Assembly (NCBI RefSeq): GCF_036248255.1
Contig: NZ_CP109178.1
Coordinates: 5,084,001 to 5,148,000, forward strand
Length of the DNA stretch: 64,000 nucleotides
Reading direction: 5' to 3'
From: Streptomyces sp. NBC_01717
GTDB taxonomy: Bacteria > Actinomycetota > Actinomycetes > Streptomycetales > Streptomycetaceae
Part shown: one piece after another, positions 6,794-39,551 of the stretch
Layout of the letters: every line of letters starts with the position of its first letter
Position numbering within the stretch: the stretch's first letter is position 1
The notes under the pieces: generated by a model
Told to the model about the DNA's origin: nothing
Databases searched by the model: none
The model's input: the letters and a program-made list of their open reading frames with translations, nothing else
Program-made: the position numbers and the translations under genes

Positions 6794-7918
6794 TCAGGAG
6801 CTGTCGCCGTCCCGCAGTGTGTCGAGGTCGGCCTTGAGCGTGTTCACCGGGATGGCGAAGCCGAGACCGACGCTGCCCGCACCGGAGCTGCTCGATCCGC
6901 CGGACGAACTCGCGGAGTACATGGCCGAGTTGATGCCGATGATCTCGCCGTTCATGTTGATGAGCGCACCGCCGGAGTTGCCGGGGTTGAGCGAGGCGTC
7001 GGTCTGGATGGCCTTGTACGTGGTGGTGGAGTTGCCGGTGTCGCCGTTGAACTGCCGTCCGCCGAACTCGAACGGCCAGTCACTGCCGCCGCCCTGCTGT
7101 CCCTGCTCCTGACCGTTCTCACTGTCCTTGGCGACGGTGACATCGCGGTTCAGCGCGGAGACGATGCCGCTGGTGACGGTGCCGGTGAGGCCCTCGGGCG
7201 AGCCGATCGCGACGACCTGGTCGCCGACCTTGATCCCGGAGGAGTCGCCGAGTGTGGCCGTCTTCAGCCCGCTCGCGCCCTCCAGATCGATCAGCGCCAG
7301 ATCCTTGTCGGCGTCGGTGCCGACGACCTTCGCGGTGTACGTCCTGCCGGTGCTCAGCGTCACCTTGATCGACGAGGCGCCCGCGATGACATGGTTGTTG
7401 GTGATGATCTCGCCGCCGGACGTGATGATCACGCCGGAGCCGGTGGACTCGCCCGCGGTCGACGTCGCACCGATCTCGACGATCGTCGGCGACACCGCCT
7501 TCGCGACACCGGCGACGGTGCCCGTGCTGCTCTGCGAGACGGTCGTGCCGCTGACCACCGAGCTGCTGTCGGTGCCGCTGGAACCGGTGCCGGTGAACTG
7601 ACCGACGGCGGTGGCGGTGATACCGCCGACGACCGCCGCCGCGACCGCCACGGCCGACAGCAGGGCGACCGGCCGCCTGGCCCGGCGCCCGTGCCCGGAC
7701 GGCTGGGGGGCGGGCTGCGGCAGCCCCTGACCGAAGCCGCCGTAGTGGTCGCCACCGCTGTGACCGGCGCCGCCGCTGCCGGGCCACACGGTCGTTCCGG
7801 GGCCCGTCGAGATCGGCTGCGCGGGCTGGTGCGCAGGCGGCGGCGGGTAGGCCGCGTCGCCGTTGCCGTACGAGGGGTACATCGGGTACTCGCCGCTCGG
7901 GCGCTGGCTCTCAGTCAT
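6794..7918 (-). CDS. Membrane-anchored HtrA/PepD-type serine protease lacking PDZ domain
   Basis: A 374-aa S1C protease. The start at 7918 (MTESQRPSGEYPMYP) begins a ~85-residue Pro/Gly-rich cytoplasmic tail. One membrane helix (PVALLSAVAVAAAVVGG) follows, with a Ser/Thr-rich linker outside. The protease domain holds the triad: His in NNHVIAG, Asp in DKDLALIDL, Ser in NPGNSGGAL. The protein stops soon after GLGFAIPVNTLKADLDTL, where HtrA proteins normally enter a PDZ domain; no PDZ is present. It probably degrades misfolded exported proteins and may feed back on the adjacent two-component system. Confidence 0.92.
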   Translation of the reverse strand: MTESQRPSGEYPMYPSYGNGDAAYPPPPAHQPAQPISTGPGTTVWPGSGGAGHSGGDHYGGFGQGLPQPAPQPSGHGRRARRPVALLSAVAVAAAVVGGITATAVGQFTGTGSSGTDSSSVVSGTTVSQSSTGTVAGVAKAVSPTIVEIGATSTAGESTGSGVIITSGGEIITNNHVIAGASSIKVTLSTGRTYTAKVVGTDADKDLALIDLEGASGLKTATLGDSSGIKVGDQVVAIGSPEGLTGTVTSGIVSALNRDVTVAKDSENGQEQGQQGGGSDWPFEFGGRQFNGDTGNSTTTYKAIQTDASLNPGNSGGALINMNGEIIGINSAMYSASSSGGSSSSGAGSVGLGFAIPVNTLKADLDTLRDGDSS

Positions 7919-8021: not shown

Positions 8022-9068
8022 CTACCGCCCCTGACCGGCCGCCGGCTCCCCGCACCCGCACGACCGCCGCACCACCAGCGCCGACGGGAACTGCTTCAGC
8101 CGCTCCCGCCGGGACCCCGACACCCGCAGCGAGTCGTCGAGCACCAGGTCCACCGCGGCACGCGCCATCGCCGGGCGGTCCGAGGAGATCGTGGTCAGCG
8201 GCGGATCGGTCAGACCCGCTTCCTTCACGTCGTCGAAGCCCGCCACCGCGAGCTCCCCGGGCACATCGATCCGCAGTTCGCGAGCAGCCCGCAGCACCCC
8301 GATGGCCTGGTCGTCCGTCGAGCAGAAGATCGCCGGCGGGCGGTCCGGGCCGGCGAGCAGCCCGAGCGCCACCCGGTAGGCGTCGTAACGGTTGTACGGG
8401 GCCTGGAAGAGCCGGCCCTCCGTCGACCGTCCCGACTCGTGCATCGCCCGGCGCCAGCCCTCGACGTGGTCGGCGACCGGGTCGCCGACCGCCGGGGTCG
8501 TCTCCATGCCGCCGAGGCACGCCACGTACGCGTTGCCGTGTTCGAGCAGGTGCCGGGTCGCCAGCTGCGCGCCGCCGATGTCGTCCGTGACGACCGCGAC
8601 GTCGTCGATCGCCTCCGGCCGCTCGTGCAGCAGCACGACCCGTGCGTCCCACGCCTCTATCTCGGCCGCCGCCCGCTCGCTGGGCCCCTGGCTGACCAGG
8701 ATCAGCCCGGAGACCCGCATTCCGAGGAAGGCCCGCAGGTAGTGGACCTCGCGTTCGTCGCGGTAGTCGGAATTGCCGACCAGGACCATTTTCCCGCGCT
8801 CCGCCGCGGCCTGTTCGACCGCGTGCGCCATCTCTGCGAAGAACGGCTGCCGGGCGTCCGGAACGATCATTCCTATGAGATCGGTCCGCCGCGACGCCAT
8901 CGCCTGCGCGACCCGGTCGGGCCGGTAACCCAGCTCCTTGATCGCGCCGAGTACCCGCTCGCGCGTGGCCGGGGCAACCGGCCGGGGTCCGTTGTTGATG
9001 ACGTAGCTGACGACCGCGGTCGACGTCCCCGCCAGTCTCGCCACATCGTCCCGCGTCACCTTGGCCAC
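8022..9068 (-). CDS. LacI-family transcriptional regulator
   Basis: A 348-aa repressor. The N-terminal helix-turn-helix is [21 protein letters not shown], followed by the hinge helix ([15 protein letters not shown]). The rest is a periplasmic-binding-protein-like effector domain ([50 protein letters not shown]). The C-terminus carries CGCG. Nearby genes give no sugar operon, so the effector is unknown. It lies 24 bases downstream of glnR in the same direction and could be read through from it. Confidence 0.93.
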
Positions 9069-9092
9069 GCGCGGCAGTCTACGCGGATGGAA

Positions 9093-9908
9093 CTACCTCT
9101 TGGCAGGCCGGACCGGGGCTTCTTCCGTGACCTCGGCTACCTCCGAGTGCTCCGGACGGGTGACGGGTTCGGCCGGTGCGTCCGCCGCGGTCCGGGCCGC
9201 AGCCTGGGCCTTGGCCTCCCCGGCCGCGCGCTCCACCTTTTCCGGCGCGACGAAGCGGTAGCCGACGTTGCGGACCGTGCCGATCAGCGACTCGTGCTCG
9301 GGGCCGAGCTTGGCGCGCAGTCGCCGGACATGGACGTCGACCGTCCGCGTACCGCCGAAGTAGTCGTAGCCCCAGACCTCCTGGAGCAGCTGGGCGCGGG
9401 TGAAGACCCGGCCCGGGTGCTGCGCGAGGTACTTGAGAAGTTCGAATTCCTTGAAGGTCAGGTCGAGGACCCGGCCCTTCAGCTTCGCGCTGTACGTCGC
9501 CTCGTCGACCGAAAGGTCGCCGTTGCGGATCTCCATCGGGGAGTCGTCGGAGGTGAGCTGCTGCCGGCCGGTGGCGAGCCGCAGCCGGGCCTCCACCTCG
9601 GCCGGTCCCGCCGTGTCCAGCAGCACGTCGTCGATGCCCCAGTCGGCGGTGACGGCCGCGAGACCGCCCTCCGTCACGACGAGGATCAGCGGGCAGCCCG
9701 GTCCGGTGGACCGCAGCAGCTGGCACAGCGACCGTACCTGCGGCAGGTCGCGGCGGCCGTCGACCAGGATGACGTCGGCACCTGGGGTGTCGACGAGAGC
9801 GGGTCCTTCGGCGGGAGCCACCCGCACGCTGTGCAAGAGCAGACCGAGGGCGGGAAGCACCTCCGTCGACGGCTGGAGGGCATTCGTCAGAAGCAGCAGT
9901 GAACTCAT
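9093..9908 (-). CDS. glnR: GlnR, global nitrogen response regulator
   Basis: A 271-aa OmpR-type orphan regulator that controls glnA, glnII, amtB, nir and ure genes in actinomycetes. The receiver domain is atypical. The conserved Asp50 is present (ILVDGR), but the acidic pair that binds Mg2+ is replaced by Thr8-Asn9. This agrees with GlnR acting as a dimer without phosphorylation. The winged helix contains [19 protein letters not shown] and [15 protein letters not shown]. An Ala/Glu/Pro-rich tail follows residue 220. No kinase gene is adjacent. Its ATG overlaps the stop of a 22-codon upstream ORF (ATGA), so translation may be coupled to it. Confidence 0.97.
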
Positions 9909-25323: not shown

Positions 25324-26289
25324 GTGACGAGCCATGGACCTGTGCCAGGTGGCAACAGTGCGCATCAGTACAAGCGGATCGCCGATGAGCTGCTGAAAGG
25401 GATCAACAGCGAGGTGTGGCGGCCCGGCGACCGGCTGCCCACGCATGAGCAGCTTGCAGACCGTTTCGACGTCTCGCGTGCGACGGTCAAAGAAGCGCTG
25501 AAGCTGCTCAGCAGCAAGGGGCTGATCGTCACCCGGCAGGGCAGCGGGACGTTCGTCAGCCAAGGGCCGAAGTCCGATGTCGTCCCGCAACGCAACAGCC
25601 CCTCCGTCGAGAACCGGGACGACGGCGGGGACGACGACGGCGACGACGTGTGGGCGGTCGTCTCGGAGCGCGTCCCTCCGGTGCTGCTGAAGCCCTACCT
25701 GGAAGAGGCGTTCGAGGCCACGCAGGTGAAGCTCGATGTCTTCTCGATGACCACGGAGTCGCTGGCGGCCCGGGTGTCGGACCAGAAGAACCGCATCATG
25801 ACCGGGGAGATCAGGCCGCCCCGAAGCATCACGGCCCGGCTGATGCTCCCCGACTGCGACTTCCCTCATCTCGCCATCCCCCGCCCGGTGGACGGGACGG
25901 ACGATCCGCGGGTGCGGCGGCGGCTGAAGGGGATCCTGCAGAGCCACGCGACCATGCTCCGGGAGGCCCTGTTCGAACTCCGCTACCAGGGGTTCGTGCC
26001 CGAAGTCGATGTCGAGGTGCGGTTGGTGCCGTTCGCACCGCAGATGAAGCTGTACATTCTGAACCGCCGACTGGCGCTGCAGGGCTTCTACGTGACCGAA
26101 GAGGGCACCATCCCGCTCCCTCCGGACCGCGAGGAAGTCGCGATCTACGACGCCTACGGTACGGGGGCCACCCTCTTTCCGTATCGCGCCTCGGCCGACT
26201 CCACACCCGACCAAGTCGGCATCGTGCGCACGTTTCAGGCATTTTTTGACTCGAACTGGGACAAACTAGCCACAAGGGCGGATTTCTGA
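25324..26289 (+). CDS. GntR-family transcriptional regulator
   Basis: A 321-aa regulator with GTG start. The N-terminal winged helix is classic GntR (QYKRIADELLKGINSEVWRPG, then RATVKEALKLLSSKGLIVTRQGSGTFVS). After an Asp-rich linker, the ~200-residue C-terminal domain is not a common FCD or UTRA domain. It contains SMTTESLAARVSDQKNRI and a Pro-rich TIPLPPDREEV segment, and its ligand is unknown. It is followed 2 bases later by a HAD hydrolase and then a phosphotransferase-like gene. Confidence 0.88.
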   Translation: MTSHGPVPGGNSAHQYKRIADELLKGINSEVWRPGDRLPTHEQLADRFDVSRATVKEALKLLSSKGLIVTRQGSGTFVSQGPKSDVVPQRNSPSVENRDDGGDDDGDDVWAVVSERVPPVLLKPYLEEAFEATQVKLDVFSMTTESLAARVSDQKNRIMTGEIRPPRSITARLMLPDCDFPHLAIPRPVDGTDDPRVRRRLKGILQSHATMLREALFELRYQGFVPEVDVEVRLVPFAPQMKLYILNRRLALQGFYVTEEGTIPLPPDREEVAIYDAYGTGATLFPYRASADSTPDQVGIVRTFQAFFDSNWDKLATRADF

Positions 26290-26291
26290 TC

Positions 26292-27098
26292 GTGCCGCAC
26301 GCCACGACCACCCCTACGTCTCCCCGGAACAAGACGGTCCCGCCGGCCGTGTCCGTCGAGAGAGCGACGGACCTGCTGTCCCGCGCCACCTGCGTCGTGC
26401 TCGACTTCGACGGACCCGTCGCCCGGCTCTTCGCCGGTGGCCATGAAGGCAAGGAGAGCGTGGCCGGCCGCATTGCCGAAGAGCTGCTGGACATCGCCGC
26501 ATCGCACCGTCTGGAAGTGGACGAGGTGCACGGATGCACCGACCCCCACGCGATCTTCAGCTGCTACGCGGAGCGCGCCGCCCACCGCGGCGAGTCCGGG
26601 GCGTGGGGCTCTGCCGCCGCGGAGATGCAGGGCGTCCTCACCGCCTGGGAGATCAAGTCGGCCGAGCATGCAGAGCCGACACCGGGTGCCGCGGAGTTCA
26701 TGAAGGCATGGGCCGGAGTGGGCGGGCGGCTGGCGGTGGCGTCCAACAATCACCCGGACGCCATCAAGCGCTACCTCGAGCGTGAGTCGCTGTCGAAGTA
26801 CTTCGCACCATCCTCGGTGATCGGCAGGAACGAGCGGGACGCTGCGCTCATGAAGCCGAATCCATGGGCTCTGAACGAGGTCATGCGGGACTCGGCAGCC
26901 GAGGTCGCGGCGCACTTGATGATCGGCGACTCGGCCACCGACTGGCAGACCGCGAACGCGGTCGGGATGCCCTTCGTCGGCTTCCACCGCAAGCCCGAGA
27001 AGCGAATGGCGCTGTCGCGGGGCGGAGTGGTTCCCGTCCTCGACTCGATGCAGGTGCTCGCCGATGCGGCGAACGGGCTGCAGGCACAAGTGCGGTAG
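26292..27098 (+). CDS. HAD-superfamily hydrolase
   Basis: A 268-aa phosphatase-like protein with GTG start immediately after the GntR gene. Motif I is VVLDFDGPVARLF (nucleophile Asp), motif II is VASNNHPDAI, motif III Lys is in LMKPNPWALNEV, and motif IV is MIGDSATDWQTANAVG. Together these form the standard HAD active site with an alpha-helical cap. The substrate is unknown. Context with a GntR regulator and a kinase-like gene suggests a small phosphorylated metabolite. Confidence 0.88.
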   Translation: MPHATTTPTSPRNKTVPPAVSVERATDLLSRATCVVLDFDGPVARLFAGGHEGKESVAGRIAEELLDIAASHRLEVDEVHGCTDPHAIFSCYAERAAHRGESGAWGSAAAEMQGVLTAWEIKSAEHAEPTPGAAEFMKAWAGVGGRLAVASNNHPDAIKRYLERESLSKYFAPSSVIGRNERDAALMKPNPWALNEVMRDSAAEVAAHLMIGDSATDWQTANAVGMPFVGFHRKPEKRMALSRGGVVPVLDSMQVLADAANGLQAQVR

Positions 27099-27100
27099 CA

Positions 27101-27120
27101 CACCAGGAAGTTGTACCTTC
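27101..27120 (+). promoter_or_regulatory. Second copy of the CACCWGGWAGTTGTA box
   Basis: CACCAGGAAGTTGTA (27101-27115) matches the box before the GntR gene at 13 of 15 bases. It is at the same distance (10 bases) from the next start codon. TACCTT at 27114-27119 takes the -10 position. Confidence 0.5.
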
Positions 27121-27125
27121 CTTGT

Positions 27126-27209
27126 ATGGATCGCGACGAGTTGGCCGCGCCGGGCTGCGGGGCCCACGGCAGGCGCACCGCAGCCGCGACGGGCCGGGCC
27201 CTCCCATGA
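27126..27209 (+). CDS. 27-codon ORF coupled to the phosphotransferase gene
   Basis: An ORF starting MDRDELAAPGCGAHGRRT, predicted to be read from a leaderless transcript. Its TGA overlaps the ATG of the following gene (ATGA), so it may serve to load ribosomes onto that gene. The peptide itself looks unremarkable. Confidence 0.35.
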   Translation: MDRDELAAPGCGAHGRRTAAATGRALP

Positions 27210-28357
27210 CGGCGCTCCCGGTTTCCGTCGCCGCGCAGCCGTCGGACCGGGCAGCCGCGGGGCAGGTGCCCCCGGCGCGGGCGTCCGAGGCCCGGATGCG
27301 TGCTGCCGCGCTCGTCTCGGACGAGAGCCTGCTGGTGGGCCCATTGAAGGGTTACCACCACGAGACGTATGCCTTTCCGCTTCCGGCGGGCGGCGGTTCG
27401 ACCGCGCAGACCTGGTGGAAGTGCCGGGATCCGCGGGCGGGGCTGTTCTGGTTCGATCTGCGCTGGTTCCCTTCGGAGAAGGAACTCGTCCGGGCCCTTC
27501 AGGGGTGCATCACCCGTATCCCCGCGGTCGTCGAGCGCGAGACCGTCTCCCTCTACACATTCATCGAGGGGCGGACGCTCGGCGAGATCTGCCCTCCCGG
27601 GCGACCGCTGTCCGCGCGCCATGTGCGTCAACTAGGGCTGCTGTTCCGCGAACTGGTCTCGGTCGACCCCGACCGGATCAGCCGGGCGGACGGCCCGGGG
27701 CAGGGTCGGCGGCCCGAAGGCCCAGGCGACGACTCCACCGCCTTTCTGATGCGCCTGATCCAGTTCACCGAGCACCAGGTCTACCGTCGGCACGCACCGC
27801 GCTACGGCTCTCTCTTCCGGGAACTCGGCCTCCGCGACGACGGACTGGACCGGCTGCGGCGGGTGGGCGGTGGGCTGACGCCACGCCCGTTCGCCCTCAT
27901 CCACGGTGATCTGCACCGGGAGAACTTCATCGTCGACCCGGATGGCGATCTGTGGACCATCGACTGGGAGCTGGCGATGGTCGGCGACCCGTTGTACGAC
28001 CTGGCGACACACCTTCATCTGATGCGCTACCCGGCGGTGGAGCAGGGGCGGATCGCAGCGATCTGGCGGGACGCGGTCGAGTGCGCCCGGCCCGGCAGCT
28101 CGGACGGATGGGAGCGAGACCTACCGGTGCTTCTCGCTTACAAGCGGGCGCAGTCCGTCTACACGGATGTGATCCGCACCGCGCTGGCCCTGGGCCCGGG
28201 ACCGGAGCCGCAGTGGCGGCTGCTGTCGCAGGCGGCCCGACGGATACGGAAGGTGCTGGCGGCGGCCGCGGAGCCACTGGGGCTGCCCCGCATGCCGACG
28301 GTCCAGGAAGTCGGTGGTGCGTATGTCCACTGGTTCGCCGCGAACCGGCCGGCGTAA
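27206..28357 (+). CDS. Aminoglycoside phosphotransferase (APH)-family kinase
   Basis: A 383-aa protein with the APH/choline-kinase fold. The catalytic loop is LIHGDLHRENFIVD (Asp and Asn) and the metal-binding motif is WTIDWELAMVGDPLYD. An N-terminal ATP-binding lobe holds GYHHETYAFPL, WWKCRDP and TFIEGRTLGEI. No close aminoglycoside-resistance enzyme is recognised, so a metabolite kinase is equally likely. It shares an upstream box with the GntR gene and probably belongs to the same regulon. Confidence 0.82.
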   Translation: MTALPVSVAAQPSDRAAAGQVPPARASEARMRAAALVSDESLLVGPLKGYHHETYAFPLPAGGGSTAQTWWKCRDPRAGLFWFDLRWFPSEKELVRALQGCITRIPAVVERETVSLYTFIEGRTLGEICPPGRPLSARHVRQLGLLFRELVSVDPDRISRADGPGQGRRPEGPGDDSTAFLMRLIQFTEHQVYRRHAPRYGSLFRELGLRDDGLDRLRRVGGGLTPRPFALIHGDLHRENFIVDPDGDLWTIDWELAMVGDPLYDLATHLHLMRYPAVEQGRIAAIWRDAVECARPGSSDGWERDLPVLLAYKRAQSVYTDVIRTALALGPGPEPQWRLLSQAARRIRKVLAAAAEPLGLPRMPTVQEVGGAYVHWFAANRPA

Positions 28358-31066: not shown

Positions 31067-32443
31067 TCAGCTGCCGCGGACCAGGTCCAGGATCTCGTCG
31101 CGGATCGCGATCATGGTGAGTTCGTCGCGGGCCTCGACGTTGAGGCGGAGGAGGGGTTCGGTGTTGGAGGGGCGGAGATTGAACCACCAGTCGGGGGTGG
31201 CGATCGTCAGGCCGTCGAGTTCGTCGACGGTGGCGTCCTCGCGGTCGGCGAAGACCCGGCGGACCGCCGCCGTGCGGGCCGTCTGGTCGTCGACGGTGGA
31301 GTTGATCTCGCCGGACCCCCGGTAGCGGTCGTAGCCGGCGACGAGGGCCGACAGGGTGCCGTCCTGGGTGCCGAGGGCGGCGAGGACGTGGAGGGCGGCG
31401 AGCATGCCCGTGTCGGCGTTCCAGAAGTCGCGGAAGTAGTAGTGGGCGGAGTGCTCCCCGCCGAAGATCGCGCCCGTGCGGGCCATCTCCTCCTTGATGA
31501 AGGAGTGGCCGACGCGGGTACGGACCGGGGTGCCGCCGTGCTCGCGTACGACCTCCGGGACCGACCACGACGTGATCAGGTTGTGGATGACCGTGCCGCC
31601 GGGGTGCTTCTCCAGTTCCCGCGCGGCGACCAGTGCCGTGATCGCCGACGGCGAGATCCCCTCGCCGCGCTCGTCGACGACGAAGCAGCGGTCGGCGTCG
31701 CCGTCGAAGGCGAGGCCGATGTCCGCGCCCTCGGCGCGCACGCGGGCCCGGAGGTCGACGATGTTCTTCGGGTCCAGAGGGTTGGCCTCGTGGTTCGGGA
31801 AGGTGCCGTCGAGCTCGAAGTACATCGGTACGAGCTCGATCGGCAACGACGCGAAGACCGTCGGGACCGTGTGGCCGCCCATGCCGTTGCCCGCGTCCAC
31901 GACGACCTTGAGCGGACGGATCGACGCGACGTCGACGAGGGAGCGCAGGTGGGCCGCGTAGTCCGTGAGCGTGTCGCGCTCGGTGACCCGGCCGGGGGCC
32001 GCGACCGGGGCCGGCGCCCCGTCCGCGAGCCATCCCTCGACGAGCCCGCGGATCTCCCCCAGTCCCGAGTCCTGGCCCACGGGCGCAGCCCCGGCCCGGC
32101 ACATCTTGATGCCGTTGTACTGCGCGGGATTGTGCGAGGCCGTGAACATCGCGCCCGGCAGCCCCAGCTCCCCCGAGGCGAAGTACAGCTGGTCCGTGGA
32201 GCAGAGCCCGATCAGGGTCACGTCCGCGCCCTGGCCCGCGGCGCCGCGCGCGAAGGCGGCCGAGAGGCCGGGCGACGACGGGCGCATGTCGTGGCCGACG
32301 ACGATCGAGTCCGCTGCTGTCACCTTCACGAAGGCGGCGCCGAGCAGCTCCGCCAGTGGCTCGTCCCACTGATCGGGCACCACCCCGCGGATGTCGTACG
32401 CCTTGATGATCTGCGACAGATCAGCAGCAACAGATGCAGCCAC
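31067..32443 (-). CDS. manB: Phosphomannomutase/phosphoglucomutase (ManB)
   Basis: A 458-aa alpha-D-phosphohexomutase that interconverts mannose-6-P and mannose-1-P, supplying GDP-mannose. The GTG start is set by AGGAGG 9 bases upstream. All four loops are intact: phosphoserine loop TASHNPAQYNGIK, metal loop DGDADRC, sugar loop GEHSAHYYF and phosphate loop RPSNTEPLLRL. It lies 250 bp downstream of the glycan operon terminator, in the same direction. Its likely role is feeding the neighbouring pyrophosphorylase. Confidence 0.93.
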   Translation of the reverse strand: MAASVAADLSQIIKAYDIRGVVPDQWDEPLAELLGAAFVKVTAADSIVVGHDMRPSSPGLSAAFARGAAGQGADVTLIGLCSTDQLYFASGELGLPGAMFTASHNPAQYNGIKMCRAGAAPVGQDSGLGEIRGLVEGWLADGAPAPVAAPGRVTERDTLTDYAAHLRSLVDVASIRPLKVVVDAGNGMGGHTVPTVFASLPIELVPMYFELDGTFPNHEANPLDPKNIVDLRARVRAEGADIGLAFDGDADRCFVVDERGEGISPSAITALVAARELEKHPGGTVIHNLITSWSVPEVVREHGGTPVRTRVGHSFIKEEMARTGAIFGGEHSAHYYFRDFWNADTGMLAALHVLAALGTQDGTLSALVAGYDRYRGSGEINSTVDDQTARTAAVRRVFADREDATVDELDGLTIATPDWWFNLRPSNTEPLLRLNVEARDELTMIAIRDEILDLVRGS

Positions 32444-32474
32444 GGCCCAACCCTCCTGAAGTCTCTGCGGTCGC

Positions 32475-32642
32475 CTCAAACTACCCGCCGAGACCACGCA
32501 AGGTGCCATCGGGTACGGCCCTGCGCAGGCCCGCACAACCGCCGGCCTCGGCCGCGCGTTCGAGGAGTTCGCCTACTCGGCCGACGACCAGTTCGCGGAG
32601 AAACAGCGGCAGGCTCGGCGGGTCCGGGGTACGGCGAGCTGA
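32475..32642 (+). pseudogene. Orphan coding tail (about 55 codons)
   Basis: An open frame with high third-position GC reads GLGRAFEEFAYSADDQF and ends AEKQRQARRVRGTAS-stop. It has no start codon or ribosome site and begins inside the manB leader. It looks like the 3' end of a lost gene. The family is not recognised. Confidence 0.35.
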
Positions 32643-32647
32643 AGACG

Positions 32648-32686
32648 AAAGGGGGCTCCGCGGTGATCACCGCGGAGCCCCCCTTT
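32648..32686 (-). terminator. Terminator of the glycan operon
   Basis: A perfect 14-bp GC stem with GATC loop, flanked by AAA and TTT, lies 8 bases beyond the acyltransferase stop. It is one of the strongest hairpins in the window. Confidence 0.9.
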
Positions 32687-32693
32687 CCTCGGC

Positions 32694-34715
32694 TCAGTCA
32701 GCCAGGACCTGCTCCAGGGCCGGCTTGAGGAAGGGCTTCAGGGTCTTCGAGTACGACGATGTGATGTGGCTGTTGTCGAAGTAGACAACCTGGTCGCCGA
32801 TGACCGCCGGGCACACGTCCGCGGCGCAGAACGCGGGCGTCGTGTCGATGATGTCCGCGCCGTACTTCTCGGCCACTTCCCGCTCCATGGCGCGGAACTC
32901 CGTGTACTCCAGCGCCTGCCACTGCTTGCGGTTGCAGGGGGTGATGTTGTCGATGTGCGTGGCGAGACAGTCGGGGATGTTCTGACCGGGCTCCGGGGTG
33001 TCCGTCATGTAGACGAGCTTGGCGCCGGTCTCCTTGAACACCTTGAACGAGGCCTCGGCGCCGGCCCGGTTCGCCTCACGGCGCGCTCGGTCGGCGATGA
33101 CAAGGACGTCCGGGTGGATCTTCTTGAGCTCCGCGAAGGCCGACTGGCGCCAGCTGTCGCACTCGGTGTACTCGCGGTTCACCTGGGGGTTGACGATGCG
33201 ATAGATCTGAGGCGAGCATCCGCCCTTCGACAGGGTCACCACCCGTACGCCGAGTTCCTTGCCGATCTCGTGGTAGACGTCGTTCCACTGCCAGGCGTGG
33301 GAGTCCCCCATGAGGACAAGGGTCTTCGAGCCCTTCGGGTCGCCGGCGACACAGCCGTCGCGCATCACGAACTTCGTGACGTCGAAGTTGTCGATGCAGC
33401 CGTGCTTGGCGGAGTTCTTGGGCGCGCTCTGCAGAGCGCCCTGCACGGCCGCGGAGAGCTGCGTGCGGTGCACGGCGTCCTCGACCGACGCCTCGCTGGT
33501 GAATCCGACCGCGACCGTGCTCGACGACGACGTCGCCAGGTGCAGCGGGACGATCGTGGCCAGGACCATCGCCCCTGCCGTGCCCGCGGTGGTGAATCCG
33601 CCGGTGAAGACGCCCTTCCACGGGCGGGCCACCAGCGACACGTTCTTCTTGAACTTGCGCTCGACGGCGTAGTGCAGGGCGACGGCGACCACGAACGAGA
33701 GGACGACGACGCGCATCCGCTCCTCGAACGTGAAATCCCGGTCGGTGATGGACGGCCAGAGCACCAGGAGCGGCCAGTGGGTCAGATACCAGCCGTAGCT
33801 GACGTTTCCGACGAAGTCGAGGACGGGATTGTCGAGCAGCCGCTCCGCGCCGAACCGGGGATTGGCGCAGCCACCAGCGATGACCATGACGGCGCCGATG
33901 ACCGGGCCGGCCACCGCGTAGCCGGGCAGTGGCGTCTCGGCGGAGATGAGCATCGCGGTGACGAGCGCGGTGCCGAGCCCCAGCCACGAGACGACCGCGG
34001 CCAGGCCGGTGTTCATGCGGGAGACGAGCGGAGCGGCGAGGGCGAGCAGAACGCCGCAGGTGATCTCCCAGATCCGGGTGTGGGTGCTGAAGTACGCGAG
34101 CGGCTGGTTCACGGGGGTCTTCGACCAGCCCAGATAGAACGATCCGGCGATCGCGGCCATCAGGAACAGCGCGACCAGGGCACGGTTGCGGAAGATCTTT
34201 CGGCTGACCCAGACGATCACGACGAGGACGATCGGGGCGGCGACGTAGAACTGTTCCTCGATGCCCAGCGACCAGAAGTGCTGATACGGGGACTGCGACC
34301 CGTCGTTGGCGAAGTAGTCGGTGCCGTTCTCGACCAGGCGCCAGTTCAGGAAGCTGAGAGAGGCGCTGAGACCGTCCTCGATATAGGCACGGAACCTGAG
34401 CGGGCTGCCGTACATCCATGCCAGGACCGCGGTGCCGACGATGACGAGAGCCATGGGCGGCGCGAGCCGTCGGAAGCGGCGCGCCCAGAACTTGGTCAGG
34501 GACACCTTGCCGGTCTTGTCGATCTCGGCAAAGAGCTGGCCGCCGATGAGGAAGCCGCTCAGGACGAAGCTCACGTCCACGCCACCGTGGATGTCGAGTA
34601 TGCCGCAGTGCATGCTGACCACCATCATGATGGCTACGGCACGCAGGCCCTGAATGTCGGGCCGGTACTTGCGAAGACGCTCTGTCTCCACGGCCGATGT
34701 GCGATGGCGGGGCAT
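32694..34715 (-). CDS. Membrane acyltransferase-3 with C-terminal SGNH domain (OafA-like)
   Basis: A 673-aa integral membrane enzyme that O-acylates cell-surface glycans. The acyltransferase-3 domain starts YRPDIQGLRAVAIMMVVSMHC, with the conserved His/Arg motifs FARRFRRLAPP-like segment (WARRFRRLAPPM) and about ten helices up to residue ~380. The external SGNH domain follows: GDSHAWQWND (Ser-His block I), GGCSP, and the C-terminal DNSHITSSY that supplies the Asp-His pair. It is the last gene of a four-gene operon. The natural substrate is probably the polysaccharide made by the upstream genes. Confidence 0.9.
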   Translation of the reverse strand: MPRHRTSAVETERLRKYRPDIQGLRAVAIMMVVSMHCGILDIHGGVDVSFVLSGFLIGGQLFAEIDKTGKVSLTKFWARRFRRLAPPMALVIVGTAVLAWMYGSPLRFRAYIEDGLSASLSFLNWRLVENGTDYFANDGSQSPYQHFWSLGIEEQFYVAAPIVLVVIVWVSRKIFRNRALVALFLMAAIAGSFYLGWSKTPVNQPLAYFSTHTRIWEITCGVLLALAAPLVSRMNTGLAAVVSWLGLGTALVTAMLISAETPLPGYAVAGPVIGAVMVIAGGCANPRFGAERLLDNPVLDFVGNVSYGWYLTHWPLLVLWPSITDRDFTFEERMRVVVLSFVVAVALHYAVERKFKKNVSLVARPWKGVFTGGFTTAGTAGAMVLATIVPLHLATSSSSTVAVGFTSEASVEDAVHRTQLSAAVQGALQSAPKNSAKHGCIDNFDVTKFVMRDGCVAGDPKGSKTLVLMGDSHAWQWNDVYHEIGKELGVRVVTLSKGGCSPQIYRIVNPQVNREYTECDSWRQSAFAELKKIHPDVLVIADRARREANRAGAEASFKVFKETGAKLVYMTDTPEPGQNIPDCLATHIDNITPCNRKQWQALEYTEFRAMEREVAEKYGADIIDTTPAFCAADVCPAVIGDQVVYFDNSHITSSYSKTLKPFLKPALEQVLAD

Positions 34716-34766
34716 GTTTCTCCAGTGACTGACTGTCCGGTCGAGCCGTGCGGCAGGTAGGTGACT

Positions 34767-35864
34767 TCAGTGGGCCGTCAGGCATGCGGCAGCCGTACCG
34801 CTGACGCGTACCCCTTGGGCAGGAATGCGGATGCCGCACGACAGCCGTAGCTGGGCGGGTAGTTCGTTCTCCGCGCCGATCTGCGCATGGCAGCCCACCA
34901 CGGCCTCACGGAGGAAGGATTCGCCGCCGATCGAGGAGTCGTGGTCCACCACGGACTCGTGGATCCGGGCGCCCTCGGCCACGGTGACGCTCCCGCCGAG
35001 GATGGAGCGATCGACGACCACGCGCGGGCCGATGACGGTGTGTGGACCGATCGTCGAGCCTCCCGTGATGCGGGCGGTCGGGTCGACGGTGGCTGTGGGA
35101 TGGATCAGGGCCTCGGTCGACCGCTCCACGAGGGGCGAGGCCACCTTGCCGGTGACCAGGTCGGCGGACCCATGGACGAATGCCAGCGGTGTGCCGAGGT
35201 CACGCCAGTAGTCCTGCGTGGTGTGGCCGAACACGCGCCGCCCCTGGGCGACGAGCTCCGGGAAGGTCTCCTGCTCGACGGAGACTTCGCGGTCGGCCGG
35301 GATGGCGTCAAGGACGGACCGGCGGAAGACGTAGCAGCCGGCGTTGATCTGGTCGGTGACGCACTCCTCCGGGGTCTTCGGCTTCTCCAGGAAGGACAGC
35401 ACCCTTCCGCCATCGTCGGTGGGTACGAGGCCGAAGGCACGAGGGTCGGCAACGCGGGTGAGATGCAGTGTCACGTCCGCTTCCCGCGCCGCGTGCTGCT
35501 CCAGGACGTCACGCAGGTCGAGGCCGGACAGGATGTCGCCGTTGAGGATCAGGACAGGTGCGTCCGCCGAACCGCGCAGCATGCGGCCGGCGTTGCGGAT
35601 CGCACCTCCCGTGCCGAGCGGGATGCTCTCGACCGCGTAGGAGATCTCCAGGTCCTGGGAGAAGTCCTTGAACTCCTCCTCGAAGAGGCTGGCGAGATAT
35701 GAGGTGGCGAACACCACGTGCTCGACCCCCGCGTCCATCAGCTTGGCAATCTGGTGCCGGATGAAGGACGATCCCGCGACATTGAGCAGCGGTTTCGGGG
35801 TGTGGTTGGTCAGCGGGCGCAAGCGAGTCCCCTTGCCGCCCACCAGGATGATGGCTTCTTGCAT
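34767..35864 (-). CDS. Mannose-1-phosphate guanylyltransferase-type nucleotidyltransferase
   Basis: A 365-aa sugar-nucleotide pyrophosphorylase. The N-terminal Rossmann domain has VGGKGTRLRPLT (residues 8-19), KPLLNVAGSSF, LGTGGAIRNAG and LILNGDILSGLDL. The C-terminal third is a left-handed beta-helix (TATVDPTARI, STIGPHTVIG, GARIHESVVD). This resembles actinobacterial GDP-mannose pyrophosphorylases, but UDP- or dTDP-sugar specificity cannot be excluded. It lies 15 bases after the glycosidase and 51 bases before the acyltransferase, in one operon. Linkage to a phosphomannomutase favours GDP-mannose. Confidence 0.88.
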   Translation of the reverse strand: MQEAIILVGGKGTRLRPLTNHTPKPLLNVAGSSFIRHQIAKLMDAGVEHVVFATSYLASLFEEEFKDFSQDLEISYAVESIPLGTGGAIRNAGRMLRGSADAPVLILNGDILSGLDLRDVLEQHAAREADVTLHLTRVADPRAFGLVPTDDGGRVLSFLEKPKTPEECVTDQINAGCYVFRRSVLDAIPADREVSVEQETFPELVAQGRRVFGHTTQDYWRDLGTPLAFVHGSADLVTGKVASPLVERSTEALIHPTATVDPTARITGGSTIGPHTVIGPRVVVDRSILGGSVTVAEGARIHESVVDHDSSIGGESFLREAVVGCHAQIGAENELPAQLRLSCGIRIPAQGVRVSGTAAACLTAH

Positions 35865-35879
35865 GATTGCCTCGCTCGG

Positions 35880-37112
35880 TCAGCTAGCGGTGTCGGTGCC
35901 AGGGCCTGCGTAGTCAGAGGTGAAGCAGGATTTGATGGCCTTCTCGGTGAGAGGGCGACCGGCGAAGTCCAGGCGGGACGCGGTCTTGTCGTCCGGTGGC
36001 GTGTTCGGATCGTCGTCGAACCACATGGACCACCAGTAGACGCCCTGCATCTGGCGTTCCCGGACGACCTGGCAGACGGCGGTGTACCAGTTGGCCTGCA
36101 CCTGGGGGTTGAGGGCGCGCTTGGTGTAGAAGTCGCCCGGTGCGTGGTAGGCGCGGTCCATGGCGCCGATGCCGGCCTCGGCGACGGTGATGTTGGGCAG
36201 CTTTCCGGGTGACTTCTTGTCCAGCCACTCGTTCCAGCCCTGCACCAGCCGCTCGACGGGCGCGGTGTCCGGCACCTTGACAGGGAAGTAGGCGTCGATA
36301 CCGAGGTGGTTGACCGGCATGTTGATGCGACCGGAGACGTAGTTGTCCCAGTTTGCGTCGTAGGCGACCTCGCCGGAGAAGGTCTTCTCGGCGGAGTCGA
36401 CCAGGCTGTCCCAGCCTGCGTCGCCCTCCATGGAGTTGAGCTCGGTGCCGATCACGAAGGTGGCGGCCTTCTCTTTTTTGGCCACTTCGAGGTATGGCGT
36501 GAGGAACTGCTTGTACGACGCGAACCAGGCCGAGCGCGAGGCCGGTTCGATGTTGCCGCGCCAGCCGTCCGGTGGGTTCAGGGACGCCTCGTCCATGATC
36601 GGGCGCAGCGTGGTGCGGAAACCGGCGTCCTTGAACACCTTCAGCACCCGCTGGAGGCGTTCCGGGGACGGCGTCTTGGCACCGTCCGAGACCTCGTTGG
36701 AGGTGATGCCCTCGGTGAAGAAGGGGAAGGAGATGGACACCGAGTTCGCGCCCAGGCCGACGAGGTACTCGGCGTGCTTGCGGGCCTGGTCCTCGATGAA
36801 CGTGCCGGAACGTTTCTTCTTCTCCTCCTCCCAGTAGAGCTGTACGCCCCACTGCGCCATGCCGGGCTTCCAGGGCTTGGCGACCTTGAGGGCGCCGGCG
36901 GAGGAGGGGGGAGCGGAGGATGGCGCGGACGTCGCTCCGGTGGCGTCGTCGGCAGGGGTGCGGGAGTCCTCGGAGTCGCCCCTGACGATTCTGGGCAGGG
37001 CCGAACCCGACTCCCAGCGCACCGGGTGGTTGCCGAGCGCGAAGGGGGTGCCCAGCACGATGGTGAGGACGGACACCGGGAAAATGGCAAGCAGGGGCAG
37101 TCTCGAGCGCAT
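35880..37112 (-). CDS. Secreted GH113-like glycosidase (probable beta-mannanase type)
   Basis: A 410-aa exported TIM-barrel enzyme. Residues 1-27 form a signal peptide or anchor, then a Ser/Thr/Pro-rich linker to about residue 80. The catalytic domain begins AQWGVQLYWEEE. The acid/base is Glu224 (IGTELNSMEG) and the nucleophile is Glu312 (TVAEAGIG). YDANWDNY and LGIDAYFPV are typical of GH113, a family of beta-1,4-mannanases. It is encoded between the glycosyltransferase and pyrophosphorylase with short gaps. It probably trims or releases the nascent polysaccharide. Confidence 0.82.
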   Translation of the reverse strand: MRSRLPLLAIFPVSVLTIVLGTPFALGNHPVRWESGSALPRIVRGDSEDSRTPADDATGATSAPSSAPPSSAGALKVAKPWKPGMAQWGVQLYWEEEKKKRSGTFIEDQARKHAEYLVGLGANSVSISFPFFTEGITSNEVSDGAKTPSPERLQRVLKVFKDAGFRTTLRPIMDEASLNPPDGWRGNIEPASRSAWFASYKQFLTPYLEVAKKEKAATFVIGTELNSMEGDAGWDSLVDSAEKTFSGEVAYDANWDNYVSGRINMPVNHLGIDAYFPVKVPDTAPVERLVQGWNEWLDKKSPGKLPNITVAEAGIGAMDRAYHAPGDFYTKRALNPQVQANWYTAVCQVVRERQMQGVYWWSMWFDDDPNTPPDDKTASRLDFAGRPLTEKAIKSCFTSDYAGPGTDTAS

Positions 37113-37132
37113 GTCAGTTGTCTTCCGGGCGG

Positions 37133-38584
37133 TCAGACGGGCTTGGCGATCACGACGAACTTGTTCTCCTCGCGCCGGACGAACCTCAGGAAGCCCTTGA
37201 AGCCGCCGAGTCCTTCGAGGACGGAGAAGACGGGGATGAGTGCGACCACCACGATCGGCTCCCACCACTTGCGCCGGCCGCCGACCGACGCGAGCGCGTT
37301 CAGCCGCAGCCCCTCCCAGTAGGTCCAGACGACGTAGGCGAAGTTGAGGGCCCACAGGATGACCACGGACTGGGTCACGGGCGAGGTGTTCATGTCGTTG
37401 ATGAGCCAGCCCAGGAGCAGCACGGCGGCGATGTGCTGGAGCGGGCCGAGGATCCAGGTGGCCACGCAGATGGAGAGGAACCAGCGGTAGCGCAAGGGCA
37501 CGGCCCGGTTGAAGCAGAGCGCCACCAGTCCCCAGGCCCACCGCTCGCGCTGCTTGACGAAGTCCTGCGAGCTGGCGGGGGAGGCGCCGTAGCAGCGGCC
37601 GTTGAACCAGTCGCTGCGGCCCGGGTAGCGGCGGCAGAAGGTCAGGGCGAGGCGGGCGTCCTCGACGATCTCCTTGGGACCGAAGTCCCAGCCGATGGTG
37701 GCCTCGATGGACGCGCGCAGCACCAAGAGCTCGCCGTGCACACCGGCGGCCGGGGTGCCCATGCCGGTCAGGGCCCGGAAGCGGGCGATGTCGTCGGCGG
37801 GGCGTACCGCGTCGGCGAGCCAGGTGAAGAGATTGGCCGCGTTCTCGCGGGGGTAGGTCAGGATGCCCTGGGCCATGTGCTTGGCCTCGTCGGGGTGGGC
37901 GCGGCGCTGCCGGTTGATGAACTGGGCGAGCGAGGAAGCGGTGTCGGGGCCGACGCCGGTGTCGTCGTCCATGTGCAGCACCCACACATAGTCGAGGGCC
38001 TCGCCCTCCTCGATGCGCAGCTCGTGAGCGTAGTGGTTGGCGCGGGCCTTGAAACGGGTGCCGTTGGCCGGGACGTAGTCCTTGGGGACGGTGATCACCC
38101 GGATCAGCGGGTGGGAGTCGGCGAGCCTGTCGATGTCCGCCGCCGCCTCGCAGCCCTCCTCGGTGAGGATGTCGACCCGCATGTACGGGAACCACTCCGG
38201 CAGGTGCTCGACGTAGGAGAGGACCGATCGCTCCAGGGCCGGGTAGGTGTCGTGCCGTCCGATCGTGGGGCAGAGGATGATCAGGAAGTCCTGCTCGGCC
38301 GGCACGGGAGGGGCCATCCGGTCGCTCTTGCGGACCCGGCGGCGGATCAGCAGGGCACCCTGGATACCGACCATCACGCCGACCACCGGCAGGGACCACA
38401 CGACGGTCAGGGCCCAGCTCAGCGTCGACGAACTGGGCCGGTAGGTCCACAGGCCGAAGGCGACCAGGAGGAAGAAGGGCAGCAGGAACGGCAGGATGCC
38501 CGGCTTCCAGGTCGAGGTGCGCTTGGCCAGCTTCTGATTGTGCCGCGAATGCGGCATGCCCCCGTCTACCAGTGTCGATGCCAT
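37133..38584 (-). CDS. Membrane GT2 glycosyltransferase (Egghead-like)
   Basis: A 483-aa processive-type inverting glycosyltransferase. Two N-terminal helices (about 28-47 and 56-80) precede the GT-A domain, with HMDDDTG (Asp206-208), the acceptor-site pair VEDARL (Glu308-Asp309) and the QRERW motif (345-349). Three to four helices follow at the C-terminus. The block GRCYGASPASSQDFVKQRE resembles Drosophila Egghead and C. elegans BRE-3, which are GDP-mannose beta-1,4-mannosyltransferases. It is the first gene of the operon. A beta-mannan product is inferred, not shown. Confidence 0.85.
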   Translation of the reverse strand: MASTLVDGGMPHSRHNQKLAKRTSTWKPGILPFLLPFFLLVAFGLWTYRPSSSTLSWALTVVWSLPVVGVMVGIQGALLIRRRVRKSDRMAPPVPAEQDFLIILCPTIGRHDTYPALERSVLSYVEHLPEWFPYMRVDILTEEGCEAAADIDRLADSHPLIRVITVPKDYVPANGTRFKARANHYAHELRIEEGEALDYVWVLHMDDDTGVGPDTASSLAQFINRQRRAHPDEAKHMAQGILTYPRENAANLFTWLADAVRPADDIARFRALTGMGTPAAGVHGELLVLRASIEATIGWDFGPKEIVEDARLALTFCRRYPGRSDWFNGRCYGASPASSQDFVKQRERWAWGLVALCFNRAVPLRYRWFLSICVATWILGPLQHIAAVLLLGWLINDMNTSPVTQSVVILWALNFAYVVWTYWEGLRLNALASVGGRRKWWEPIVVVALIPVFSVLEGLGGFKGFLRFVRREENKFVVIAKPV

Positions 38585-38969
38585 GACGACTGCGAAACTC
38601 CCGTGAATCGGGGATGCGTTGAGGCAGCGACAGAGATCGACCGCGGCACGACGGAGCGCGCCACGGCACTTTCACTCTGGGTTGGATGCCCCCAACGCCT
38701 TCCCTGGCGTTCTCGGCCACTCGCCCTTCAGAACCCCCCCGAGCTCTCGAACTACCGGCCGAACAGGAGCACAACACTCGCATGTTTGCCAGATACATGG
38801 AACTGGCGTGAAGAAGATGTGTTTAAGGTTCAAGTAGATGTGTCTAAAAGTTCACACCCGAAATCTTGCGCCGTTATGGAGCGGGAAGAGTAATACGTCT
38901 GTTTCACGTCGTTCGTGGGTCCCGCCACACGTCGCGGTATGGCGATCTGCTCGACGGCACGGGGAGAGC
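38585..38969. other. Control region between glycan operon and integrase relic
   Basis: No convincing gene. The part at 38760-38900 is unusually AT-rich for this genome and holds two phased direct repeats (38815-38854). It is the likely promoter region of the leftward glycan operon. Confidence 0.5.
38815..38854. promoter_or_regulatory. Two direct repeats phased 21 bp apart
   Basis: AGATGTGTTTAAGGTTCA (38815-) and AGATGTGTCTAAAAGTTCA (38836-) are nearly identical and start exactly 21 bases apart, two turns of the helix. This fits two protein molecules binding on the same DNA face. They lie about 230 bp upstream of the glycosyltransferase start. Confidence 0.45.
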
Positions 38970-39385
38970 CGGCGGACGATTGCCCTGCCGAAGCAGGTGG
39001 TGGAAGTCCTCGAAGAGCACCTGCGCTGGCAGAAGCAGGAGCGGGCATCCCATGGGATCGAGCGGAGCCCCGCGGGTCGCGTCTTCACCACCAGAAGTGG
39101 CGAGCCCCTCGACGCCGCCAACGTGCGCCGTGACTTCCGGGCCATCGTGGTGAAGGCGGGCCTTGAGTCAGAGTGGACGCCCCGGGAGCTTCGGCATAGC
39201 AGCGTGTCGCTGTTCTCCGGCCATGGCATTCCGCTGGAACGGATCGCGCTGCTGGTGGGACACAGCAGCCGGGCGACCGCAGAGGCCGTCTGTCGCAAAC
39301 AGCTCCGCCCCGTGATCACGCAGGGGCTGAGGCGATGGACGAGATCTTCGAGTTCGGGGGGACGCGCTCCAACAGCAAGGCTTGA
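38970..39385 (+). pseudogene. Dead tyrosine recombinase (integrase) C-terminal fragment
   Basis: The fragment starts RRTIALPKQVVEVLEEHL and includes WTPRELRHSSVSLFSGHG (catalytic HxxR box) and IALLVGHSS. It is broken in three ways. The N-terminal arm and core-binding domains are missing. The catalytic Tyr is Cys (EAVCRKQLRPVI, TGT at 39291). A frameshift near 39318 moves the normal ending (AEAMDEIFEFGG) to another frame. It lies next to the 3' end of tRNA-Pro, the usual position for an integrase at an attachment site. Confidence 0.8.
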
Positions 39386-39424
39386 TCAAAAGCCTTTGGC
39401 CCCCGGTTTGGCCCCCAGGCATGA

Positions 39425-39460
39425 CAAAGGGCACGTACGAAATTTCGTACGTGCCCTTTG
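39425..39460. terminator. 36-bp perfect palindrome beside tRNA-Pro
   Basis: Two 18-base arms (CAAAGGGCACGTACGAAA and its exact complement) meet without a spacer. It lies 17 bases beyond the 3' end of the tRNA gene and about 40 bases after the integrase relic. It can end transcription from both sides; a cruciform or protein-binding role is also possible. Confidence 0.75.
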
Positions 39461-39477
39461 ACCTGGTGTTTCAGCTG

Positions 39478-39551
39478 TCGGGGTGGCGGGATTTGAACCC
39501 ACGACCTCTTCGTCCCGAACGAAGCGCGCTGCCAAGCTGCGCTACACCCCG
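39478..39551 (-). tRNA. tRNA-Pro (CGG anticodon)
   Basis: A 74-nt cloverleaf. The acceptor stem is CGGGGTG/CACCCCG with discriminator A, the D stem is GCGC/GCGC, and the anticodon stem is CTTCG/CGAAG around loop TTCGGGA (anticodon CGG). The T arm is GTGGG-TTCAAAT-CCCGC. CCA is not encoded. The 3' end faces the integrase relic. Confidence 0.95.

Follow-up and report, generated by a model that had tools for sequence, protein, structure and literature searches.

What does a streptomycete build with a membrane glycosyltransferase, a mannanase-like hydrolase, a sugar-nucleotide pyrophosphorylase and an acyltransferase encoded in one operon? The question is raised by a minus-strand operon in a 64,000-nucleotide stretch of the Streptomyces sp. 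NBC_01717 genome (contig NZ_CP109178.1, positions 5,084,001 to 5,148,000; hereafter the window, whose numbering is used below unless a relative's locus is named). An earlier, sequence-only reading had proposed five genes here that together make, trim and acylate a beta-mannan. Coordinates and Pfam profiles bear out the five genes, on the minus strand and at about the positions claimed. In the order of transcription they encode a putative beta-mannan synthase, namely a membrane glycosyltransferase (GT) of family GT2 (37133..38584, 483 residues; PF13632, 79.7 bits), a GH113 glycosidase (35880..37112, 410 residues; PF22612, 104.3 bits against a cut-off of 27), a pyrophosphorylase (34767..35864, 365 residues; PF00483, 169 bits), an AT3-SGNH O-acyltransferase (32694..34715, 673 residues) and, beyond a strong hairpin (32647..32688, minus strand), a phosphomannomutase (31067 to about 32440). 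The gaps between the first four, calculated from the coordinates with an ATG start of the GH113 gene at 37112, are only 20, 15 and 51 bp. The strong hairpin claimed at the operon end is real, with a minimum free energy of −51.1 kcal/mol for the region 32600–32693 (z = −3.97, none of 200 shuffles equally stable), though it has no T run and a consensus terminator scan did not report it; a promoter scan, uninformative at such G+C content, yielded no promoter. Our answer is that this is probably a synthase-dependent exopolysaccharide operon, whose product would be a chain of beta-mannan type, passed to the outside, trimmed there and O-acylated.

The GT has the layout of a polymer synthase, with a GT-A domain between N- and C-terminal membrane helices (hydrophobic segments at residues 25–49, 54–80, 369–396 and 440–464). 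The DxD, ED and Q(Q/R)xRW motifs, hallmarks of processive GT2 synthases, are invariant across the 55 rows of the GT alignment, and in a profile comparison the ED and QRxRW segments align with those of BcsA. The nearest structures to the GT model are PcManGT, cellulose synthases and hyaluronan synthases, and the alignment of the model with BcsA spans residues 27–471 (381 aligned), with the N-terminal membrane pair inside the span. Motifs and modelled fold support a processive polymer synthase of the cellulose/hyaluronan synthase type, for which synthesis of long chains is predicted. Of the earlier description of this protein as an Egghead-like mannosyl synthase, the polymer-synthase type stands, by motifs and fold; the GDP-mannose donor and the beta-1,4 linkage are putative. 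The relation to Egghead, an enzyme that adds a single beta-mannose, consists of the names that databases give to relatives of the GT. The structure-based search suggested as a check gave a divided answer: the best structural match, PcManGT, carries a mannosyl name and an activity that was never confirmed (PMC8993221; here and below, papers are cited from the portions of their text available to us), and the credible sequence matches are cellulose synthases. A single-sequence search of solved structures with the GT returned no credible match. No BcsB- or GlxA-type partner and no PilZ domain was found in the five window genes (Pfam, E 1e-3).

The GH113 protein, predicted to be exported or anchored, has a hydrophobic N-terminus. 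Profile, structure model and alignment confirm the GH113 identity and the two catalytic glutamates that had been read from the sequence. The model is a GH113 barrel with GH113 enzymes as its nearest folds, and the glutamates, residues 224 and 312 (E203 and E291 in a 389-residue reading of the gene), are both invariant across 36 aligned rows. E203 aligns with a glutamate in each of two GH113 mannanases of known structure, 4cd6 and 5ylh, and E291 with one of 5ylh; these aligned residues are the catalytic ones. Most relatives of the operon carry a second hydrolase gene upstream of the synthase, identified by Pfam as GH26 in all three members scanned out of 39 (97, 84.6 and 85.2 bits; cut-off 20.2). 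In the consensus of the 39 members, conserved HEMN and ESFH segments stand out, and the solved structures that match this GH26 best mostly bear the name beta-mannanase. GH26 and GH113 are both beta-mannanase families (PMC9032380). The proposed pairing of synthase and hydrolase is thus supported and extended, in that the synthase usually has members of two mannanase families beside it.

As for the enzymes that would feed the synthase, the claim of a GDP-mannose supply is supported. The pyrophosphorylase scores 451 bits against NF052502 (mannose-1-phosphate guanylyltransferase, cut-off 440), all of the 24 other models listed, out of 40 others matched, remain below their cut-offs, and the best matches in the PDB are mannose-1-phosphate guanylyltransferases (E 1.6e-50). 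The same cut-off is exceeded by all six further proteins scored, namely five guanylyltransferases from relatives' operons (of at least 33) and the second copy in this genome. The phosphomannomutase, with four PGM_PMM domains, reaches 766.5 bits against PRK09542 (cut-off 618); its start is uncertain, as a long GTG frame opens at 32536. It is the second copy in the genome, being 84% identical to the one at C1:5694117. Its membership of the operon, as originally proposed, is rejected: none of the 40 fully flanked relatives described below carries a phosphomannomutase in the locus, and the gene lies outside the conserved block, beyond a scar of foreign truA. Among 61 genomes, only G000 and G012 have two phosphomannomutase matches of at least 75% identity among the matches listed, the strongest of which come first. 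In the acyltransferase, an AT3 membrane domain (PF01757, 95.2 bits), with hydrophobic segments in the N-terminal half of the protein, is fused to an SGNH domain (PF19040, 110.4 bits). This two-domain architecture is common to SucT and other AT3-SGNH acyltransferases, and the window protein matches the SucT profile lengthwise; identity with SucT is rejected, however, at 238.2 bits against an equivalog cut-off of 1275.

Does this gene set recur? A search of named genomes with the GH113 alignment found 53 loci, of which 48 were examined; the five left out (L056–L060) are only 24–28% identical and lie outside Actinomycetota. The GT is present in 46 of the 48. Exclusion of eight loci with short flanks leaves 40, among which the GT occurs in 39 (each time together with GH113), a GH26 gene near the GT in 35, as a rule directly before it, the guanylyltransferase in 33 and an AT3-SGNH acyltransferase of either of two types in 28. 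Within the genus, the GT was found in 29 of 295 genomes and a close GH113 in 28, all of them GT-positive; 19 of the 47 GH113-positive genomes have only a distant GH113 (27–31% identity) and were not counted as close. The co-occurrence is strong (28/29 versus 0/266; one-sided Fisher test, P = 2e-38, a value that ignores relatedness and assumes an identical set of 295 genomes). The GT-positive exception, G310, has no GH113 and carries a GH26 gene beside, and divergent from, the GT. GH26 adjoins the GT in 22 of the 29 GT-positive genomes, and among 18 GT-free genomes searched (of 266, taken from the top of the list rather than drawn at random) two gave a strong GH26 match anywhere and three a weak one.

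In the named loci the operon mostly resides between truA and rplM. The genes valS and folC enclose a second site, which corresponds to one tree clade of six (support 99/98), and further sites were seen once or are unresolved. One GT-positive Streptomyces genome, G014, has a fragmented GT: its truA–rplM operon is decayed (L113 6710–7738), with three GT pieces, a partial GH113 and neither guanylyltransferase nor acyltransferase. In valS-site and some other operons a conserved frame (L037 6420–7364 and five others of the same cluster) lies between GH26 and GT; inspection by eye shows hydrophobic stretches in it, the one member scanned matched no Pfam family, and it could possibly encode an export partner.

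Several observations weigh against a beta-mannan-type product, and some of them would suit an operon of the same kind making another beta-linked polymer, such as a glucomannan, a chain containing N-acetylmannosamine (ManNAc) or partly acidic, or a beta-glucan, with the GH113 and GH26 enzymes adapted to it. Among solved structures, the GT has credible sequence matches only to the cellulose synthases mentioned above (profile search, E 0.011), and the GH26 family also holds enzymes acting on other beta-glycans (endoglucanase H, E 6e-4). A Streptomyces GH113 enzyme (S. davawensis CCK30803, without a predicted signal peptide), which may or may not belong to the present group, was obtained in soluble form but showed no activity on the mannans tried (PMC9032380), and a GH113–GT2 operon of Clostridioides difficile has been read as ManNAc-rich (PMC7710045). 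At single relatives' loci, moreover, a polysaccharide-lyase-like protein, encoded by a 675-residue frame that combines a pectate-lyase-like beta-helix with a K1-lyase C-terminal domain, takes the place of GH26 (G103, L108 3838–5865), and a gene of the UDP-glucose/GDP-mannose dehydrogenase family is convergent with the guanylyltransferase at the operon end (G008, L107 1747–3033); both neighbours would fit an acidic polymer. We nevertheless regard another polymer as a minority possibility: a guanylyltransferase is present in most of the fully flanked loci, Pfam reveals no epimerase, dehydrogenase or UDP-sugar enzyme among the five window genes, and two mannanase families share the loci. Other points count against the beta-mannan reading as well. 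One locus, L055, is a true exception that carries a GH113 of this group (9001–9878) without a GT, the other GT-less locus of the 48 (L052) beginning with a contig end inside the hydrolase gene; the gene order of L055 resembles that of the GT-bearing L054. The window copy has no GH26 gene, and a search that gave positives in other genomes detected no GH26 of this type in the rest of the genome. Finally, five of the six valS-site loci lack the guanylyltransferase and all six the acyltransferase, so that both genes look like additions to a GH26–GT–GH113 core.

Two further explanations separate the synthase from the hydrolases. The GT might, in the manner of Egghead, attach just one beta-mannose residue to a lipid or glycan while the hydrolases act on something else; this is improbable, because its ED and QRxRW segments align with BcsA, because the alignment of its model with BcsA takes in the N-terminal membrane pair, and because one or two endo-glycanase families constantly accompany it. 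That the locus serves mannan scavenging, with hydrolases digesting plant mannan and a GT adjacent by chance, would agree with the mannanase families of both hydrolases, yet the near-constant linkage of GT and GH113 speaks against chance, and the recurrent neighbours (read by eye, with eight frames scanned) showed neither a transporter nor a mannosidase or sugar regulator; we consider this explanation very improbable. A synthase-dependent operon for a beta-mannan-type chain is our preferred reading.

How did the operon reach its present position in the window? The interval between truA and rplM in this genome is without the operon and contains a gene for an ABC protein, a 631-residue frame and a conserved gene to which Pfam assigns no family. 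(The conserved gene, near rplM, occurs in 23 loci, for example at L008 4582–5751 and L105 5928–6851, lacks a Pfam family in the one scanned, and is retained here without the operon.) Window positions 32704–38768 are 90% identical, over 6.07 kb, to positions 7283–13350 of L008, a relative's locus, and both edges of the block bear scars. At the downstream edge, 32562..32642 (plus strand) corresponds to the last codons of a foreign truA and shares 66 of its 81 positions with the truA tail of L020; the truA tails of 16 of 24 relatives are better matches to it than the truA of this genome itself (22/26, over 26 positions only). At the upstream edge, the last 18 codons of GH26 remain (38857..38910, minus strand; encoding DVKQTYYSSRSITAQDFG, where the L012 GH26 ends in DVKRTYHSSRMITAQDFG), all that the window copy retains of that gene. 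The nucleotide match of this scar to L012 is 79.5% over 83 positions, and it is continuous with the 6.2-kb block match to the same locus. The window GT, in addition, nests in a clade of 24 rows (support 100/96), 19 of which are truA-site copies.

Only 0.6 kb separates the block from a tRNA-Pro(CGG) gene (39477..39551, minus strand; ARAGORN), a likely integration site, and the frame in between (38838..39461, plus strand), whose start overlaps the GH26 scar, encodes a C-terminal integrase fragment (PF00589, 47.7 bits, frame residues 39–148 only). No flanking repeat was found at the block. Taken together, the empty truA site, the scars, the position of the GT in its clade and the tRNA-Pro/integrase setting argue that the four-gene block was most likely taken from the truA–rplM locus of another streptomycete, its GH26 gene being cut off in the process; we infer that the integrase may have performed the insertion. 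In these scars one can see the way in which operons of this kind are spread and, at the same time, shortened. The stretch 38838–39551 is probably the right border of the accessory segment and adjoins frames that resemble, by eye, a metallophosphoesterase, YqeY and a penicillin-binding protein; left of the operon segment, frames for a GntR regulator, a HAD hydrolase and an APH-like phosphotransferase lie in a row at 25324–28357.

Under the preferred reading of a beta-mannan-type exopolysaccharide, mannose-1-phosphate from either of the two phosphomannomutases in the genome would be converted by the guanylyltransferase to GDP-mannose, which the membrane GT2 would polymerise at the cytoplasmic side, the chain passing through its own transmembrane part. 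Outside, the exported GH113, joined in most relatives by a secreted GH26, would cut or trim the chain, and the AT3-SGNH protein would add O-acyl groups to it. As for the window copy, its four genes most likely departed together from a truA–rplM-type locus in another streptomycete, came to lie beside tRNA-Pro and lost GH26 on the way. More tentatively, and as a serious possibility rather than an expectation, about one in ten Streptomyces species, along with certain other actinomycetes, may make a linear, O-acylated beta-1,4-mannan for their surface or matrix, by means of a dedicated synthase and their own GH26 and GH113 enzymes, from an operon that is mobile as a block.

Most known beta-mannans come from plants and algae. 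With its combination of a cellulose-synthase-like GT2, a GDP-mannose enzyme and two mannanase families, the operon offers a candidate beta-mannan synthase, dedicated and bacterial, that can be tested directly, and its polymer could be the missing natural substrate of those actinobacterial GH113 enzymes that do not act on plant mannans. If the proposal is true, the poorly known streptomycete surface gains a polymer. No described Streptomyces mannan synthase operon was found among the matches listed, most subscription papers lying outside the literature covered.

The pairing of a synthase with GH113 is, as such, not new. In C. difficile, a BcsA-like GT2, closest to mannosyltransferases, stands next to GH113 in one operon predicted to function in exopolysaccharide synthesis (PMC7710045), the same pairing as in the Streptomyces operon. 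The C. difficile operon differs in having its own BcsB-like partner, an epimerase and a deacetylase and in its ManNAc-rich reading, and the available text mentions no guanylyltransferase, GH26 or AT3-SGNH protein (PMC7710045). In Bacteroidetes, GH113 genes of clade 5 lie beside GT2 mannosyltransferase-like genes and have likewise been suggested to serve synthesis or remodelling of the organism's own polysaccharide; they belong to a different clade, none of the seven enzymes obtained in soluble form acted on any substrate tried, and no operon is described in the text at hand (PMC9032380). In the actinomycete Actinoplanes missouriensis, the exopolysaccharide cluster wps-1 likewise includes a putative GH26 gene (wpsE) and is required for normal sporangium formation; unlike the present operon, it is Wzx/Wzy-dependent and thought to yield a sulfated polymer, and the text makes no mention of GH113 (PMC13390465). 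The CslA–GlxA–CslZ cellulose system of Streptomyces works with a copper oxidase partner and produces cellulose in vitro, and the accessible portion of the text mentions neither a mannanase nor a guanylyltransferase or acyltransferase (PMC11022532); within the same genus, it likewise joins a membrane GT2 synthase to an exported hydrolase encoded nearby.

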